From assembly GCA_025055115.1 (NCBI GenBank), contig JANWYJ010000013.1, forward strand, positions 1-64,000: 64,000 bases of DNA. The letters are read 5' to 3'. Numbering within the stretch: position 1 is the stretch's first letter; the number at the start of each line of letters is the position of its first letter. A program made the translations under genes and the position numbers. Source of the DNA: Gemmata sp. (lineage in GTDB: Bacteria > Planctomycetota > Planctomycetia > Gemmatales > Gemmataceae). Under the pieces are notes generated by a model, which was not told where the DNA came from, did no database searches, and saw nothing but the letters and a program-made list of their open reading frames with translations. Of the stretch, positions 47,323-53,700 are shown piece by piece.

Positions 47323-48615
47323 ATGTCGACAATGCCACCGGAATATCCCGGTTCCAATCCGTTCAGTAATTCCCCAACCTATTTGATGGCCTGCCAACAA
47401 TTGCGGAACGTCGCCCGCGCGATTGATCTGGACCCAGGGATTGCAGAACGGCTCATGCTGCCAAAGCGCTCGCAGGTGGTTTCTGTTCCCGTTCGGATGG
47501 AAGATGGTCGCACGGAAGTGTTTGTGGGTTATCGCGTGCAGCATTCCCTCACCAGCGGCCCGAGCAAAGGCGGGCTGCGTTATGCCAAAAATGTTGATTT
47601 GGGCGAAGTGGCGGCGTTGGCGATGTGGATGAGCTGGAAGTGCGGAATCATGAACCTTCCCTTCGGCGGTGCCAAAGGCGGTATCGCCGTTGATCCAGCG
47701 GAACTCAAAGGCGGTGAAAAAGAGCGACTGACCCGACGATTCACCGACGAAATTCAGAATATCATCGGTCCACGGATCGACGTGATGGCTCCCGATATGG
47801 GTACCGATGAGCAAACCATGGCTTGGATTTACGACACCTACTCGATGAAAGTGGGCTACGCCTGCCCCGAGATCGTGACCGGCAAGCCGGTGGAATTGGG
47901 CGGTTGTATCGGGCGCAAAGAAGCTACCGGTCGCGGGGTAACGTATTGCATTCTTCAGGCCCTGGAAGAACTGGGCATCCGTCCCGAGACCGCGACCGCG
48001 GTGGTTCAAGGTTTCGGTAACGTCGGTTCGGTTACTTGTGAAGAATTGGTCAAACTGGGTGTCAAAATCATCGCCATTGGCGACCGTTACGGCAGCATCC
48101 GCAACGATCGCGGTATCAATATTGCCAAACTGCTCGAATATCAGAGCCAAAATGAGCGGAAAACAGTGGCGGGGTTTCCCGAAGCCGAAGCCATTGCTGA
48201 TTCCGAACTGCTGACGATACCCTGCACCATCCTGGTGCCGGCGGCGATGGAACGTGTGATCACAGAAGCGAATGCAGGTCAATTGCGTTGCCGCATCCTC
48301 GCGGAGGGGGCGAATGGACCAACGACACCGGAAGCCGACGCCATCCTGGCAAATTCCGACATTTTCATCATTCCCGACATCTTGTGCAACGCGGGGGGGG
48401 TGACCGTGTCGTACTTCGAGTGGGTGCAAGACCTGGCCCAATTCATGTGGGATGAAGAACAAGTGAAAGCCCAACTCAAGAAGCTCATGCTCGGCGCCTA
48501 CCACCGCGTGCGCAACGAAGCGAAGCGGCGAAATATCTCCAACCGCTTAGCTGCTTTGAGTTTAGGTGTCCAAAAAGTGGCTCGGGAGAAGCAAAAACGC
48601 GGCCTTTACCCCTAA
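47323..48615 (+). CDS. Glutamate dehydrogenase (Glu/Leu/Phe/Val family)
   Basis: A 430-residue glutamate dehydrogenase, interconverting glutamate and 2-oxoglutarate plus ammonia with NAD(P). Motifs: GYRVQHSLTSGPSKGGLRY, the catalytic-Lys segment PFGGAKGGI, and the NAD-binding VVQGFGNVG. The N- and C-terminal parts match the hexameric small-subunit type. ATG 47323 has GGAGG nine bases upstream. It sits between two GT-C-like membrane protein genes on the same strand, but with no sign of a functional link. Confidence 0.96.
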   Translation: MSTMPPEYPGSNPFSNSPTYLMACQQLRNVARAIDLDPGIAERLMLPKRSQVVSVPVRMEDGRTEVFVGYRVQHSLTSGPSKGGLRYAKNVDLGEVAALAMWMSWKCGIMNLPFGGAKGGIAVDPAELKGGEKERLTRRFTDEIQNIIGPRIDVMAPDMGTDEQTMAWIYDTYSMKVGYACPEIVTGKPVELGGCIGRKEATGRGVTYCILQALEELGIRPETATAVVQGFGNVGSVTCEELVKLGVKIIAIGDRYGSIRNDRGINIAKLLEYQSQNERKTVAGFPEAEAIADSELLTIPCTILVPAAMERVITEANAGQLRCRILAEGANGPTTPEADAILANSDIFIIPDILCNAGGVTVSYFEWVQDLAQFMWDEEQVKAQLKKLMLGAYHRVRNEAKRRNISNRLAALSLGVQKVAREKQKRGLYP

Positions 48616-48752: not shown

Positions 48753-50249
48753 ATGTCGAAAGAAAATATTGTCGATTCAGAACTTGCGACAAAACCCAGC
48801 GTGTTGGTGCTGCGCTGGCTGACGGTGGTTCTGTTTGTGGGGGGGGCCGCGGGATCGCTGTACTACTTCGTTCACCATCCAACGATCATCCGCGGCGATG
48901 GTTGGGAATATCTCTGCCAACTCGAATCACTTTACCAGCATCGTTCCCCTGAGCTTCGCGCTAGCGATGTCGACGCGGTCAATGCCCTCACCGTAGCGCG
49001 CGGATTGGGTACGGTTCCCCAACCCCCGATCGCGATTGGTTATCACGAAGCCCCCAACGGGGAGTTTTATGGGATTCACTTTTGGGGTTATGCCCTGACG
49101 GCGATTCCGGCCAAAGCCTGGCTGCAAGCCACCGGCCGAAATGAATTAGCCGCATTCCAATTGACCAACACCCTCTGCTTTCTCGTGGCCTTGGCCGTGG
49201 TGTTGTTTGTTTGGGATGCACCTGATGGCAAGCGTTGGCTCTATGCAGGCTTGATCACTGTCGGACCGGTGCTGTGGTATTTGGAGTTCACGGGTTCCGA
49301 AATCTTCAGTTGGGCTTTCATCACCATGGCGATTGTCGCCTACGATTCCAACCGCTTTGCCCTATGCTCTGCCGCAGCGGCGCTGGCAGCGCTTCAGAAC
49401 CCGACGCTTATCTTTTTTTGCGGCGCTGGCATCGCCTTAGCGATCTGGGAATGTCGCTGGCGAGAAGCCGTTGCAGCCGGAATGGCCAGCGGGCTAGCGT
49501 TTCTGCCGATGGCCTTCAGCCAGTACCTGTTTGGCCGCCCCAGTCTGATTGCCGATGGCTTTGTGAGCGCCAGTTACATTTCGTGGGCCAAAACCTGGGG
49601 TTACGCCTTCGATTTCAATCAGGGTCTGATTTCGTACACTCCACTTTTCGTCTTTGGGGCGTTCGCTGGTGCCTTGGGCTTGATCATCCGGAATTCCGTG
49701 AAAGGTCTTGTGATGCTTTTGACCATCGCCGCCGTCGCGGTGGCGACCGAAATGCAAGTGAATTGGAACTCGGGTTGTTTGGGAATTCAGCGTTATTTGG
49801 TGTGGCAAATACCCGCTCTCGCATGGGTGATGCTCGAGGGACTCGGCTCCAGTTGGGCCGCACGCGCCGTTACGAGCTTGACCATTCTCAGTAGCGGCAT
49901 CATCGCCCTCATCGGTCTACCCTCCACTAGCTATGTGGAACATCATCCGGTCGCGAAATGGGTGTTGACGCATTACCCACGGTTGTACCATCCCGAACCG
50001 GAAGTGTTTATCGAGCGGCAGATTCAAACGGAGTTGCCCTGGCCGCGCGTCTACCCAGTTCCCGTGGGTTTTGCGGATGCCGAAGGCAACATCACCAAGG
50101 TTCTGGTAGATGGGGAAGACTTGGAGGCGGTTGCGGAAGTTTTCTGGGCCACTCCGGAGTATTTGGTCACACTCCGCGATGAAGCTACGCGGCACAAACG
50201 CTTCTTCTACTCTCACCCGCCCCGCGGCAGTCTGCGTGTGCGTCGCTAG
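48753..50249 (+). CDS. GT-C-like integral membrane protein
   Basis: A 498-residue protein with about 10-11 membrane helices from residue 19 to 385 and a C-terminal soluble tail of some 90 residues. The first external loop contains IIRGDGWEYL and the HEAPNGEFYGIHFWG region, a layout seen in GT-C glycosyltransferases such as the dolichol-phosphate-mannose-type or ArnT-like families. No specific family can be assigned. It starts at ATG 48753, after a hairpin that separates it from glutamate dehydrogenase. Confidence 0.72.
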   Translation: MSKENIVDSELATKPSVLVLRWLTVVLFVGGAAGSLYYFVHHPTIIRGDGWEYLCQLESLYQHRSPELRASDVDAVNALTVARGLGTVPQPPIAIGYHEAPNGEFYGIHFWGYALTAIPAKAWLQATGRNELAAFQLTNTLCFLVALAVVLFVWDAPDGKRWLYAGLITVGPVLWYLEFTGSEIFSWAFITMAIVAYDSNRFALCSAAAALAALQNPTLIFFCGAGIALAIWECRWREAVAAGMASGLAFLPMAFSQYLFGRPSLIADGFVSASYISWAKTWGYAFDFNQGLISYTPLFVFGAFAGALGLIIRNSVKGLVMLLTIAAVAVATEMQVNWNSGCLGIQRYLVWQIPALAWVMLEGLGSSWAARAVTSLTILSSGIIALIGLPSTSYVEHHPVAKWVLTHYPRLYHPEPEVFIERQIQTELPWPRVYPVPVGFADAEGNITKVLVDGEDLEAVAEVFWATPEYLVTLRDEATRHKRFFYSHPPRGSLRVRR

Positions 50250-50824: not shown

Positions 50825-52291
50825 ATGTTTGAGTCTGACACTCGACGTTCGGCAGCCCCTTACCAACCGGCGGCCCCGACGTTCGAGGATGAAGAACCCC
50901 CGAGTTCCTCCCGACGGCACCCTGTCTGGCGGGATGTACCCGATGAACAATGGGACGATTGGCGGTGGCAGACCCACCACTCCATACGCTCTGTCCGCCA
51001 ATTACGGAATTTGCTTCCATTCTCGGCCGAAGAGCTGGAAATTCTCGGTCAATTGGAAGGCGATTACAAGGTTGCGATTCCGCCCTATTATTTCTCTCTT
51101 ATCGACCCGCAAAATCCTCACGACCCCATCCGGCTGCAATCAGTACCCTCGCCCCTCGAAGCTGAGAATCTCTCCGGTTACGAACTCGACGACCCCCTTG
51201 AAGAGGATAAAGACTCCCCAGTGCCCGGGTTGACCCATCGCTATCCCGACCGGGCCTTGCTCATCACCACTCCTAACTGCTCGATGTATTGCCGCTACTG
51301 TACCCGGAAGCGCGCAACTCTCACGCGCGGCGGTTGGGAGAGTATCAGCGCCGACGATGAGCGGATGATCGAATATGTCCGGGACCACCCGGAGATCCGT
51401 GATGTTATCATTTCGGGAGGCGATCCGCTCACACTCCCCCTGAATAAGCTACGCTATTACCTGGAAAACCTCAAAGCGATTGAGCATGTCGATGTCATTC
51501 GGATTGGGACGCGGGTCCCCGTCACTCTGCCGCAACGGCTTTACGACAACGAACTGATCGAGTTACTTGCCTCGGCGGAAAAAGTCTACATTCAAACCCA
51601 CTTCAACCACCCGCGCGAACTAACTCCTGAGGCAATCAGGGTTTGCAAAGCACTGTTGCGTGCTGGCATGCCCATCAACAACCATTCGGTGCTTCTCAAA
51701 GGGGTGAACGATAATCTCGCGACCATGCGGGCGCTACTGCGCGGCTTGTTGAAGGCCAAAATCCGCCCCTACTACCTGTTCCACTGCGACCCCGTGACCG
51801 GCGCTGGCCACTTCCGAACCAGCATCTGGAAAGGTATGGAAATCATGGAAGGCCTTCGCGGTCATATGTCGGGGATCGGTATCCCAACGTATGTGGTCGA
51901 TAGTCCGCATGGGGGCGGAAAAATCCCTCTGATGCCCAATTATTTAGTCTCAATGTCCGATGATGCCGTCATTTTGCGGAACTACGAAGGCTTGCTGATC
52001 CGTTATCAAGCCGAGGATAAGCCAACAACGATCGAAGCAACCACCACACAGGGAGTCAGCGGGCTTTTACAAGGTGATAAAACCGTTCTGATTCCCCACG
52101 ACAACGAACGGATGGCCCGGCGCAAACCCCGAGTGATCCGCGAATGCGGTACTGCCGCAGCGGAGCGGAACCATCATGGCAGTTCGCACAACGCCGAGGT
52201 TCCCATCCGACCGATCATTCCCCTTCCTCTGATCAATTGTTCAAATAATGGACATCCCACCAACAATGGCCATGCGGCCTCGAATGGATAA
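50825..52291 (+). CDS. kamA: Lysine 2,3-aminomutase (KamA-family radical SAM)
   Basis: A 488-residue radical SAM and PLP enzyme that moves the alpha amino group of L-lysine to the beta position. The 4Fe-4S ligands are Cys152, Cys156 and Cys159 (CSMYCRYC), the GGD of the SAM site is 198-200, and the PLP lysine is in SPHGGGK (Lys366). The two aspartates that hold lysine in clostridial aminomutase are both present (Asp322 in HCDPVTGAGH, Asp359 in VVDSPHG), which favours true beta-lysine formation over the shorter EF-P-modifying EpmB. The Asn-rich C-terminus is unusual. ATG 50825 is chosen for GGAGGT ten bases upstream; an in-frame ATG at 50783 is an alternative. Confidence 0.9.
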   Translation: MFESDTRRSAAPYQPAAPTFEDEEPPSSSRRHPVWRDVPDEQWDDWRWQTHHSIRSVRQLRNLLPFSAEELEILGQLEGDYKVAIPPYYFSLIDPQNPHDPIRLQSVPSPLEAENLSGYELDDPLEEDKDSPVPGLTHRYPDRALLITTPNCSMYCRYCTRKRATLTRGGWESISADDERMIEYVRDHPEIRDVIISGGDPLTLPLNKLRYYLENLKAIEHVDVIRIGTRVPVTLPQRLYDNELIELLASAEKVYIQTHFNHPRELTPEAIRVCKALLRAGMPINNHSVLLKGVNDNLATMRALLRGLLKAKIRPYYLFHCDPVTGAGHFRTSIWKGMEIMEGLRGHMSGIGIPTYVVDSPHGGGKIPLMPNYLVSMSDDAVILRNYEGLLIRYQAEDKPTTIEATTTQGVSGLLQGDKTVLIPHDNERMARRKPRVIRECGTAAAERNHHGSSHNAEVPIRPIIPLPLINCSNNGHPTNNGHAASNG

Positions 52292-52386
52292 ACTGTTGAC
52301 ATCATCATGGCGATAACGACCCCGGAGAACCTCCTGGGTTGTGGCTAGTTTCCCTGGCCCCCTGTCTTCGCGCACGAGGGCAACCC

Positions 52387-52629
52387 ATGTCCCATCCCGC
52401 CTCGGACGATGGCCCGAATCGCGGCTCGTCAGACCGGACGACGGCCGTTGTTTGGACTGTCCTGGCTCTCGGCGTTGCTATCTTTATGTTTTGGTATGCC
52501 GATCGTGTCGAGCCGGAGAAGAGAAACTTCTATCTCATCGGAGCCGCTATTGCCGCGATTATCACCGTGATGAATGGCTGGAGCGCGTACTCGTTGTTTC
52601 AAAAGTCCAAGTCCCCCCCGAAGTCATAA
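52387..52629 (+). CDS. Small two-helix membrane protein
   Basis: An 80-residue protein with two membrane helices (about 20-38 and 49-68) and a short basic C-terminus. No family is recognised. ATG 52387 has GAGGG upstream; the frame is open from 52339 but that part is not expected to be translated. It lies between kamA and a Ddl-like gene, all on the same strand, and is probably co-transcribed with them. Confidence 0.75.
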   Translation: MSHPASDDGPNRGSSDRTTAVVWTVLALGVAIFMFWYADRVEPEKRNFYLIGAAIAAIITVMNGWSAYSLFQKSKSPPKS

Positions 52630-52677
52630 GAATGCCGCGAGTGATCGAACGCGGATGTGTTGTGGGAGCCGCCGGCG

Positions 52678-53700
52678 ATGCGAATCGGAATCGCTTGTAC
52701 CCTCAAACCGACCGGCCCACTGCCGGCGGGGGCACCCGACGATTTGTATGAGGAATTCGACTCCCCCGCCACCGTCCAGGCGATTGCCGACGTCTTTCGG
52801 TCGTTGGGTCATCAAGTCGTCGAATTGGGGGATGGTCGCGATTTTCTCCAGGCTGTTTTACACGATCCGCCCGACTTGGTTTTTAACTTTGCCGAGGGTA
52901 CCGGGGTCAGTCGCTCCCGTGAAGCACGAGTTCCGGCGGTCTGTGAAATGTTAGGGATTCCCTACAGCGGCTCCGATCCGCTGGCCTTGGCGGTGGCGCT
53001 GGATAAAGACATGACGCGGCGGGTAGTGGAATCACACGGACTGACAGTACCCCGGGGAGTCACCCTCACCCCACCCTCCGAGCGTTACGATGGGGATTTT
53101 GCCGAATTCCCCCCCATTCTTGACGAAGCCGGACTGTCGCTTCCCGTGTTGGCGAAACCCACCTGTGAAGGCTCCAGCCGCGGCATTCGCAACCGCTGCC
53201 TGATCAAAACGGCCGAGGACTTGGGGCCGACCATCGTCGAGCTATGGAACAATTACCATCAACCGGTGTTGGTTGAGGAATACATTGCCGGCGATGAAGT
53301 CACCATCGGGCTAGTTGGCAACGATCCCCCCCAACCCATTGGTATCATGCAGTTGATACCCAAACAGTCGCCGGGCGATTTCGTCTATAGCTTGGAAGTC
53401 AAACGCCATTGGCATGATGTGGTGGATTACGTGGCTCCAGCCCCTCTGCCACCGGAAGTGAGCCGCGCCGTGGAAGCCGACGCGATGACGGCCTTTATGG
53501 GCCTCGGCTGCCGCGATCTGGCCCGCGTCGATTTTCGCATTCGGGATGGCATTCCTTATTTTCTGGAAATCAACCCCCTGCCCGGCCTGAATCCCGAATC
53601 GAGCGATTTGCTCTACCTCGCTTACCGGATGGGGTTCACCTACCACCAGCTCCTCAGCATGATCTTGGACGCAACACTGTCCCGTTATGGAATGAAATGA
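52678..53700 (+). CDS. D-alanine-D-alanine ligase-like ATP-grasp enzyme
   Basis: A 340-residue ATP-grasp ligase of the Ddl type. It has the N-terminal Rossmann-like domain (IGIACTLK; LVFNFAEGTGVSRSREARVP), KDMTRRVVESHGLTVPRG, the ATP-grasp core VLAKPTCEGSSRGI and VEEYIAGDEVTIG, and the metal-binding YFLEINPLPGLNPESSD. The substrate-contact segments differ from canonical Ddl, so the acceptor may not be D-alanine. ATG 52678 has GGGAG upstream; a GTG at 52657 is in frame. It lies 49 bp after the small membrane protein and downstream of kamA, which suggests a shared pathway (inference). The stop-codon region is duplicated. Confidence 0.85.
   Translation: MRIGIACTLKPTGPLPAGAPDDLYEEFDSPATVQAIADVFRSLGHQVVELGDGRDFLQAVLHDPPDLVFNFAEGTGVSRSREARVPAVCEMLGIPYSGSDPLALAVALDKDMTRRVVESHGLTVPRGVTLTPPSERYDGDFAEFPPILDEAGLSLPVLAKPTCEGSSRGIRNRCLIKTAEDLGPTIVELWNNYHQPVLVEEYIAGDEVTIGLVGNDPPQPIGIMQLIPKQSPGDFVYSLEVKRHWHDVVDYVAPAPLPPEVSRAVEADAMTAFMGLGCRDLARVDFRIRDGIPYFLEINPLPGLNPESSDLLYLAYRMGFTYHQLLSMILDATLSRYGMK

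Follow-up and report, generated by a model that had tools for sequence, protein, structure and literature searches.

Within the window analysed here, a stretch of 64,000 nucleotides from a contig of Gemmata sp. (JANWYJ010000013.1), three genes lie in a single run on the + strand, separated by gaps of 95 and 27 bp. They encode a lysine 2,3-aminomutase-type enzyme (KamA), a small membrane protein, and an ATP-grasp ligase with the fold of D-alanine:D-alanine ligase (Ddl), here called LigA. Open reading frame coordinates and Pfam matches agree with the initial annotation on this arrangement. Made without sight of other genomes, that annotation missed the second Ddl-like ligase (LigB) and the GNAT-family acetyltransferase that often accompany such a run elsewhere; in this genome a probable LigB and a GNAT homologue are encoded on other contigs. 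The genome of the window is denoted G000 (4.93 Mb, 100 contigs, 98.11% complete); other G-numbers are compared genomes, C-numbers contigs and L-numbers loci.

50825 (ATG) to 52291 (stop), + strand: kamA, a lysine 2,3-aminomutase-type radical S-adenosylmethionine/pyridoxal phosphate enzyme of 488 amino acids (aa), assigned from Pfam, NCBIfam and an alignment with the solved structure 2a5h.
52387 (ATG) to 52629 (stop), + strand: small membrane-protein gene, 80 aa, a lineage-restricted accessory, recognized from two hydrophobic stretches seen by eye and from homologues.
52657 (GTG) or 52678 (ATG) to 53700 (stop), + strand: LigA, Ddl-fold ATP-grasp ligase, assigned from PF07478, a tree, the AlphaFold2 (AF2) fold and signature residues.
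G000:C30:37559-38437, outside the window: most likely LigB, from its similarity to LigA and the position of C30-type proteins after LigA in relatives.
G000:C55:57799-58266, outside the window: GNAT homologue, from a profile match (E=1.4e-42).

Relatives suggest that ATG 52678 is the more probable start of LigA.

Sequence features of the aminomutase and the ligases

KamA contains the Radical_SAM (PF04055) and LAM_C (PF12544; 97.3 bits, residues 341-435) domains and matches the solved lysine 2,3-aminomutase 2a5h with E=1.2e-125. D322 and D359 are the counterparts of positions 293 and 330 in 2a5h, which we take to be its lysine-binding aspartates; the earlier claim that both are kept was correct. 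The CxxxCxxC motif and both aspartates were conserved in 97/97 KamA matches reaching those positions in 120 loci (L041-L080 and L088-L167, with a few contigs common to both sets). No second KamA is encoded in G000 (only match at E<=0.01). From these features the enzyme is predicted to make beta-lysine from L-lysine.

LigA has a Dala_Dala_lig_C domain (PF07478, 98.4 bits), and its AF2 model (predicted local distance difference test, pLDDT, 96.2) is nearest to solved Ddl structures, with Z 33.2 and 27% identity to DdlA; the model of LigB reached a pLDDT of 94.1. Both ligases have "D-alanine--D-alanine ligase" models as their top NCBIfam hits, and none of these hits reaches its cut-off: against TIGR01205 (cut-off 245.65) LigA scores 120.3 bits and its C30 paralogue 120.2. 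Signature residues were compared in an alignment of two planctomycete Ddl, 58 LigA and 25 LigB sequences, with numbering and roles (Tyr216, NT.PG) presumed to follow E. coli DdlB. At the ATP/Mg site, all 58 LigA retain the Ddl residues Lys, Glu, Asp, Asn and Arg. The Tyr216 position of Ddl, on the other hand, is occupied by R in 54/58 LigA and by W in 25/25 LigB, and NT.PG is replaced by NPLPG in LigA (N, P, L and G in 58/58, the second P in 56/58) and by NPNP in LigB (25, 23, 25 and 25 of 25). Near the N-terminus LigA carries acidic residues (D24, E28 and D30 in 58/58, E27 in 54/58, counted from codon 52672) where Ddl holds a Glu motif, in a region where the alignment is weak; such an acid-rich pocket would suit a diamine donor such as beta-lysine. 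A tree of 76 ligases divides into a LigA half, which includes the window protein, and a LigB half, beside which the C30 protein sits on a long branch; the two canonical Ddl, also long-branched, attach basally to the LigA half. Judged by its sequence, LigA is not a D-Ala-D-Ala ligase.

Canonical cell-wall enzymes were also sought. In G000, a planctomycete genome of about 98% completeness, no protein passes the TIGR01205 cut-off for a canonical Ddl. Nor was a Mur ligase detected: the single Mur_ligase_M (PF08245) match at E<=0.001, on C97, reads by eye as FolC. The Mur result is stated for G000 alone. Jeske 2015 (PMC4432640) reports peptidoglycan in Gemmata obscuriglobus. A separate full-length Ddl (>=239 bits) is present in 16 of 17 other LigA-bearing genomes checked, over the cut-off in 12; none was found in the remaining one (G167). 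Of five genomes lacking LigA, two (G024 and G048) encode a Ddl over the TIGR01205 cut-off and G002 encodes one of 221 bits; nothing matched in G121 or G205.

Linkage of kamA and LigA across genomes

In 59 near relatives (LigA at E<=1e-60, KamA at E<=1e-100, GNAT profile at E<=1e-25), LigA was found in 37 and KamA in 44. In 31 of these 37 genomes, which belong to Gemmatales, kamA directly neighbours LigA, with gaps below 400 bp except in G252 (798 bp; partial KamA match). For two genes placed at random in a 5 Mb genome, the chance of sharing a strand and lying no more than 3 kb apart is about 0.0006, so the run goes beyond chance. The initial annotation asked whether all three genes stay together across planctomycetes; the order of kamA and LigA is conserved, but the small gene between them occurs in few loci.

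A wider sample of the phylum Planctomycetota comprised 246 genomes (LigA-like at E<=1e-20, KamA at E<=1e-60). LigA-like proteins, a count that takes in LigB and canonical Ddl, were detected in 110 and KamA in 60. In at least 34 genomes kamA and a LigA- or LigB-type ligase gene share a strand and are no more than 2 kb apart, namely in 33 of the 60 KamA genomes and in G004, where a kamA fragment lies at a contig edge; this is a lower bound because neighbourhoods were drawn for 38 genomes only and the rest were judged by listed coordinates. A second ligase accompanies the pair in 30 of these 34 loci and a GNAT in 28.

The linkage extends beyond the phylum. A LigA alignment searched against 84,980 species genomes gave at least 579 confirmed stretches, of which the best 80 (the LigA loci) were analysed; this set overlaps the phylum set (e.g., L143/L045, L151/L047, L160/L050). 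KamA is encoded in 64 of the 80, LigB (C30 type included) in 59 and a GNAT in 39; kamA and LigB occur together in 48, and all four genes in 33. On the same strand, kamA lies within 300 bp of LigA in 56/80 loci and within 2 kb in 62/80. The 62 linked loci belong to Chloroflexota (26), Planctomycetota (21), Omnitrophota (4), Acidobacteriota (2) and, with one locus each, Caldifarciminota, Lindowiibacteriota, Margulisiibacteriota, Thermodesulfobacteriota, Pseudomonadota and Bacillota; the remaining three come from Riflebacteria, Candidatus Ozemobacter and a bacterium without a phylum entry. The kamA-LigA linkage spans ten named phyla and Riflebacteria. Strain-named carriers include Zavarzinella formosa DSM 19928 (L092) and Caproicibacter fermentans EA1 (L165). 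Across 64 loci, the identities of KamA and those of LigA are correlated (r 0.77, reached by 0/1000 permutations), a pattern that shared descent alone could also produce.

In G000 itself, one further LigA-like protein is encoded, on C30. It is most likely a relocated LigB, because proteins of this type follow LigA in relatives (L089, L091, L096 and others; 10 of 20 Gemmatales loci). The GNAT homologue on C55 adjoins an open reading frame that by eye resembles homogentisate dioxygenase. GNATs of the same profile are present in 45 of the 59 relatives, including genomes with no KamA or LigA match. Thirteen of 15 unlinked GNATs, the C55 protein included, form one clade (SH-aLRT 89), and the other two (G087, G167) group among the linked ones. 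Two linked GNATs were scanned; rimI and other GNAT models matched below cut-off, and no AblB model matched at E 0.01.

Proposed pathway and alternatives

We consider it rather likely that kamA, LigA, LigB and the GNAT gene constitute a conserved biosynthetic cassette, that the run in the window is the part of it held by G000, and that the product is a small soluble N-acetylated beta-lysine peptide. From the genes present we infer substrates, an order of steps, a product and a role as follows. KamA would convert L-lysine to beta-lysine. LigA would activate a carboxylate as an acyl phosphate and join beta-lysine to an amino acid, with beta-lysine favoured as the donor. LigB would add a further residue, and in lineages that carry it the GNAT would acetylate an amine. 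The resulting small soluble N-acetylated beta-lysine peptide would most plausibly serve as a compatible solute or another intracellular protectant. The initial annotation had proposed that beta-lysine is made and joined to something else, and the conserved gene order, the lysine-type aminomutase and the non-Ddl ligase speak for this part of the idea. Its cell-wall peptide version is not supported, because no Mur ligase was found in G000, a separate Ddl is present in 16/17 genomes and the cassette occurs in many phyla.

Several observations weigh against this proposal. KamA does not reach the cut-off of the lysine 2,3-aminomutase equivalog TIGR03820 (459.5 bits, cut-off 525.4). The substrates of LigA are not readable from its sequence, and the donor could be another acid, with beta-lysine as the acceptor. 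In 16 of the 80 LigA loci no kamA lies in the stretch covered (L093, L095, L102, L103, L105, L121, L131, L146, L149, L151, L156, L158, L161, L162, L166 and L167); a contig ends within 1.5 kb upstream in 5 of these. In Gemmatales, 6 of the 37 genomes have LigA without kamA beside it, the two genes being 2.7 Mb apart in G264 and on different contigs in G250, G269, G276, G284 and G287; in G087 and G105 kamA is apart from a LigA-LigB pair. Six of the ten named phyla are represented by one contig each (L128, L142, L144, L150, L164 and L165), and binning errors are possible because all of these but L165 come from metagenome-assembled genomes. The clade of unlinked Gemmatales GNATs also occurs in G048 and G293, which have no KamA or LigA match, and in G275 alongside a linked GNAT, so it may belong elsewhere; the case for the C55 protein as a certain fourth member of the cassette is weakened by this distribution. 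Finally, the compatible-solute role is a first guess made with low confidence, by analogy with N-acetylated beta-lysine, a known osmolyte.

It is very improbable that LigA is the ordinary cell-wall D-alanine:D-alanine ligase and kamA an accidental neighbour. Ddl structures are its best solved folds, D-Ala ligase models are its best NCBIfam matches, although below cut-off, and no other Ddl was found in G000. The initial annotation had regarded an only ddl together with a complete mur cluster as the mark of the ordinary enzyme; no other true ddl was found here, but no Mur ligase either, and gene order, whose lack of conservation it had named as the other refuting outcome, is conserved. The D-Ala-D-Ala ligase role was rejected on the sub-cut-off score (120 bits against 245.65), the altered Ddl signature residues and the failure to find a Mur ligase in a 98% complete genome, and the separate full-length Ddl of most other LigA genomes argues in the same direction. 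We give no more credence to the idea that KamA serves beta-lysylation of elongation factor P (EF-P), in the role of EpmB, next to an unrelated ligase. Sections of PMC2821294 report both EF-P modification genes in scattered Planctomycetes, and EpmA is over its cut-off in 7 of 17 genomes checked. In G000, however, the best match to TIGR00462 stays at 242.5 bits against 286.9, so that no EpmA passes, and KamA scores only 229.1 bits against the EpmB model TIGR03821 (cut-off 369.3), having matched TIGR03820 far better; EF-P modification was rejected for G000 on these two scores. KamA is moreover linked to LigA and has a LAM_C domain, whereas YjeK/EpmB is described, in the same portion of PMC2821294, as a truncated aminomutase.

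Two other alternatives were weighed. The ligases might build a lysine peptide, or use another acceptor, before KamA isomerises the lysine within the product. This order of events draws on the same linkage evidence, and two Myxococcales loci (L149, which ends 0.9 kb upstream, and L158) hold LigA, LigB and GNAT with no kamA in the stretch covered, so the ligases seem able to work without it. We nevertheless judge it unlikely: the lysine-binding Asp pair is that of the free-lysine enzyme in 97/97 sequences, and free lysine is, to our knowledge, the substrate of the lysine aminomutases characterized so far. Somewhat less likely still is that KamA begins beta-lysine catabolism or makes N-epsilon-acetyl-beta-lysine, and that the ligases are a separate module travelling with it. 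N-epsilon-acetyl-beta-lysine is a compatible solute elsewhere (PMC12776343); ablA clusters with the beta-lysine acetyltransferase gene ablB in the account given in sections of PMC2821294; and a GNAT is often linked in cassette loci. Yet kamA stands within 300 bp of LigA in most LigA loci, and neither of the two linked GNATs scanned matched an AblB model.

Accessory genes, related systems and implications

No Pfam family matches the small membrane protein above cut-off. L088 and L089 carry homologues with the same start in this slot, flanked by kamA and LigA, and the small open reading frame is considered a real gene because close relatives share this slot and start. No match was found in the remaining 78 of the 80 LigA loci. 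Among 20 Gemmatales neighbourhoods, homologues occur in 6, one of them (L178) on the contig that L089 also represents; none is present in the genus members L175, L177, L180, L181 and L182. The initial annotation had suggested this two-helix protein as an export or anchoring part; being lineage-restricted, it was rejected as a core component of that kind.

Upstream of kamA in the window lies a gene that by eye encodes a Glu/Leu-type dehydrogenase (47323-48615), with homologues upstream of kamA in 9 of the 20 Gemmatales neighbourhoods. Positions 48753-50249 encode a 498-aa protein without a Pfam match, which L173 and L177 also have between the same two genes. YkgJ/DUF3109-like proteins were clearly present in 7 of the 34 phylum loci (and at 45 bits in L077) and in 6 of the 80 LigA loci; this Cys-cluster protein, for which the L147 member was scanned with Pfam, follows GNAT or LigB in L046, L049-L054, L096, L097, L099, L145, L147 and L160. 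TetR regulators were seen in 5 of the 34 phylum loci; like the YkgJ/DUF3109-like proteins, they are confined to some lineages. A gene for a PmbA/TldD-type metallopeptidase stands upstream of kamA-LigA in the Omnitrophota locus L154 (scanned), and the same cluster appears in L139 and L157. Component 16, a protein 320 to 387 aa long that by eye is possibly another ATP-grasp enzyme, stands beside kamA or LigA in L134, L144 and L150; Pfam gave no match for the L144 member, which an S66 peptidase follows. An S58-family peptidase adjoins LigA in L166 and L167, both loci with no kamA in the stretch covered, and a domain scan found a histone-deacetylase-domain protein in the Dehalococcoidia locus L132, with the same cluster in L120, L123 and L127. 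The S58 family includes beta-peptidyl aminopeptidases. These last two neighbours are hints about the product.

Among known systems, the AblA-AblB route to N-epsilon-acetyl-beta-lysine likewise combines a lysine 2,3-aminomutase-type enzyme with a linked GNAT; the cassette differs in inserting one or two Ddl-fold ligases and in the lack of an AblB match in its two scanned GNATs. The Ddl/Van enzymes (D-Ala-D-Ala, D-Ala-D-Lac and D-Ala-D-Ser ligases) share with LigA the fold and the ATP/Mg residues, but LigA lies far under the family cut-offs, has Tyr216 and NT.PG replaced, and belongs to a genome with no Mur ligase found. EpmA-EpmB also joins beta-lysine to an amine with the help of a KamA-family enzyme; EpmA, however, is LysRS-like rather than an ATP-grasp protein. 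N-acetylglutaminylglutamine amide (NAGGN), an N-acetylated dipeptide osmolyte, resembles the proposed product in being a small peptide made without ribosome or nonribosomal peptide synthetase (NRPS), although its ligase types and amino acids differ from those of the proposed cassette. MysD of mycosporine biosynthesis, which we take to be a Ddl-like ligase, differs in its partner, that of LigA here being KamA. It is likewise described, in sections of PMC11983340, as an ATP-grasp ligase of small-molecule biosynthesis.

The cassette brings together known kinds of enzyme in a new way. No description of it was seen among the titles and abstract openings listed at the top of full-text searches, in a collection mostly without subscription papers and in which the phrase "2,3-aminomutase" was not searchable; papers that mention both an aminomutase and ATP-grasp concern, by title, other subjects. 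It could pass for cell-wall synthesis because the best NCBIfam matches of its ligases are D-alanine--D-alanine ligase models, and this possible mistake extends even to G000, where no Mur ligase was found. We propose, tentatively, a widespread ribosome- and NRPS-independent pathway in which paired Ddl-fold ligases would make N-acetylated beta-lysine peptides, a new class of beta-peptide metabolites. Such a pathway would span Planctomycetota, Chloroflexota, Acidobacteriota, Omnitrophota, Riflebacteria and others, and uncultured bacteria may use its product as a compatible solute. If this is true, the genes themselves would mark out a way of making beta-amino-acid peptides, and the enzymes of that route would be open to in vitro assay.

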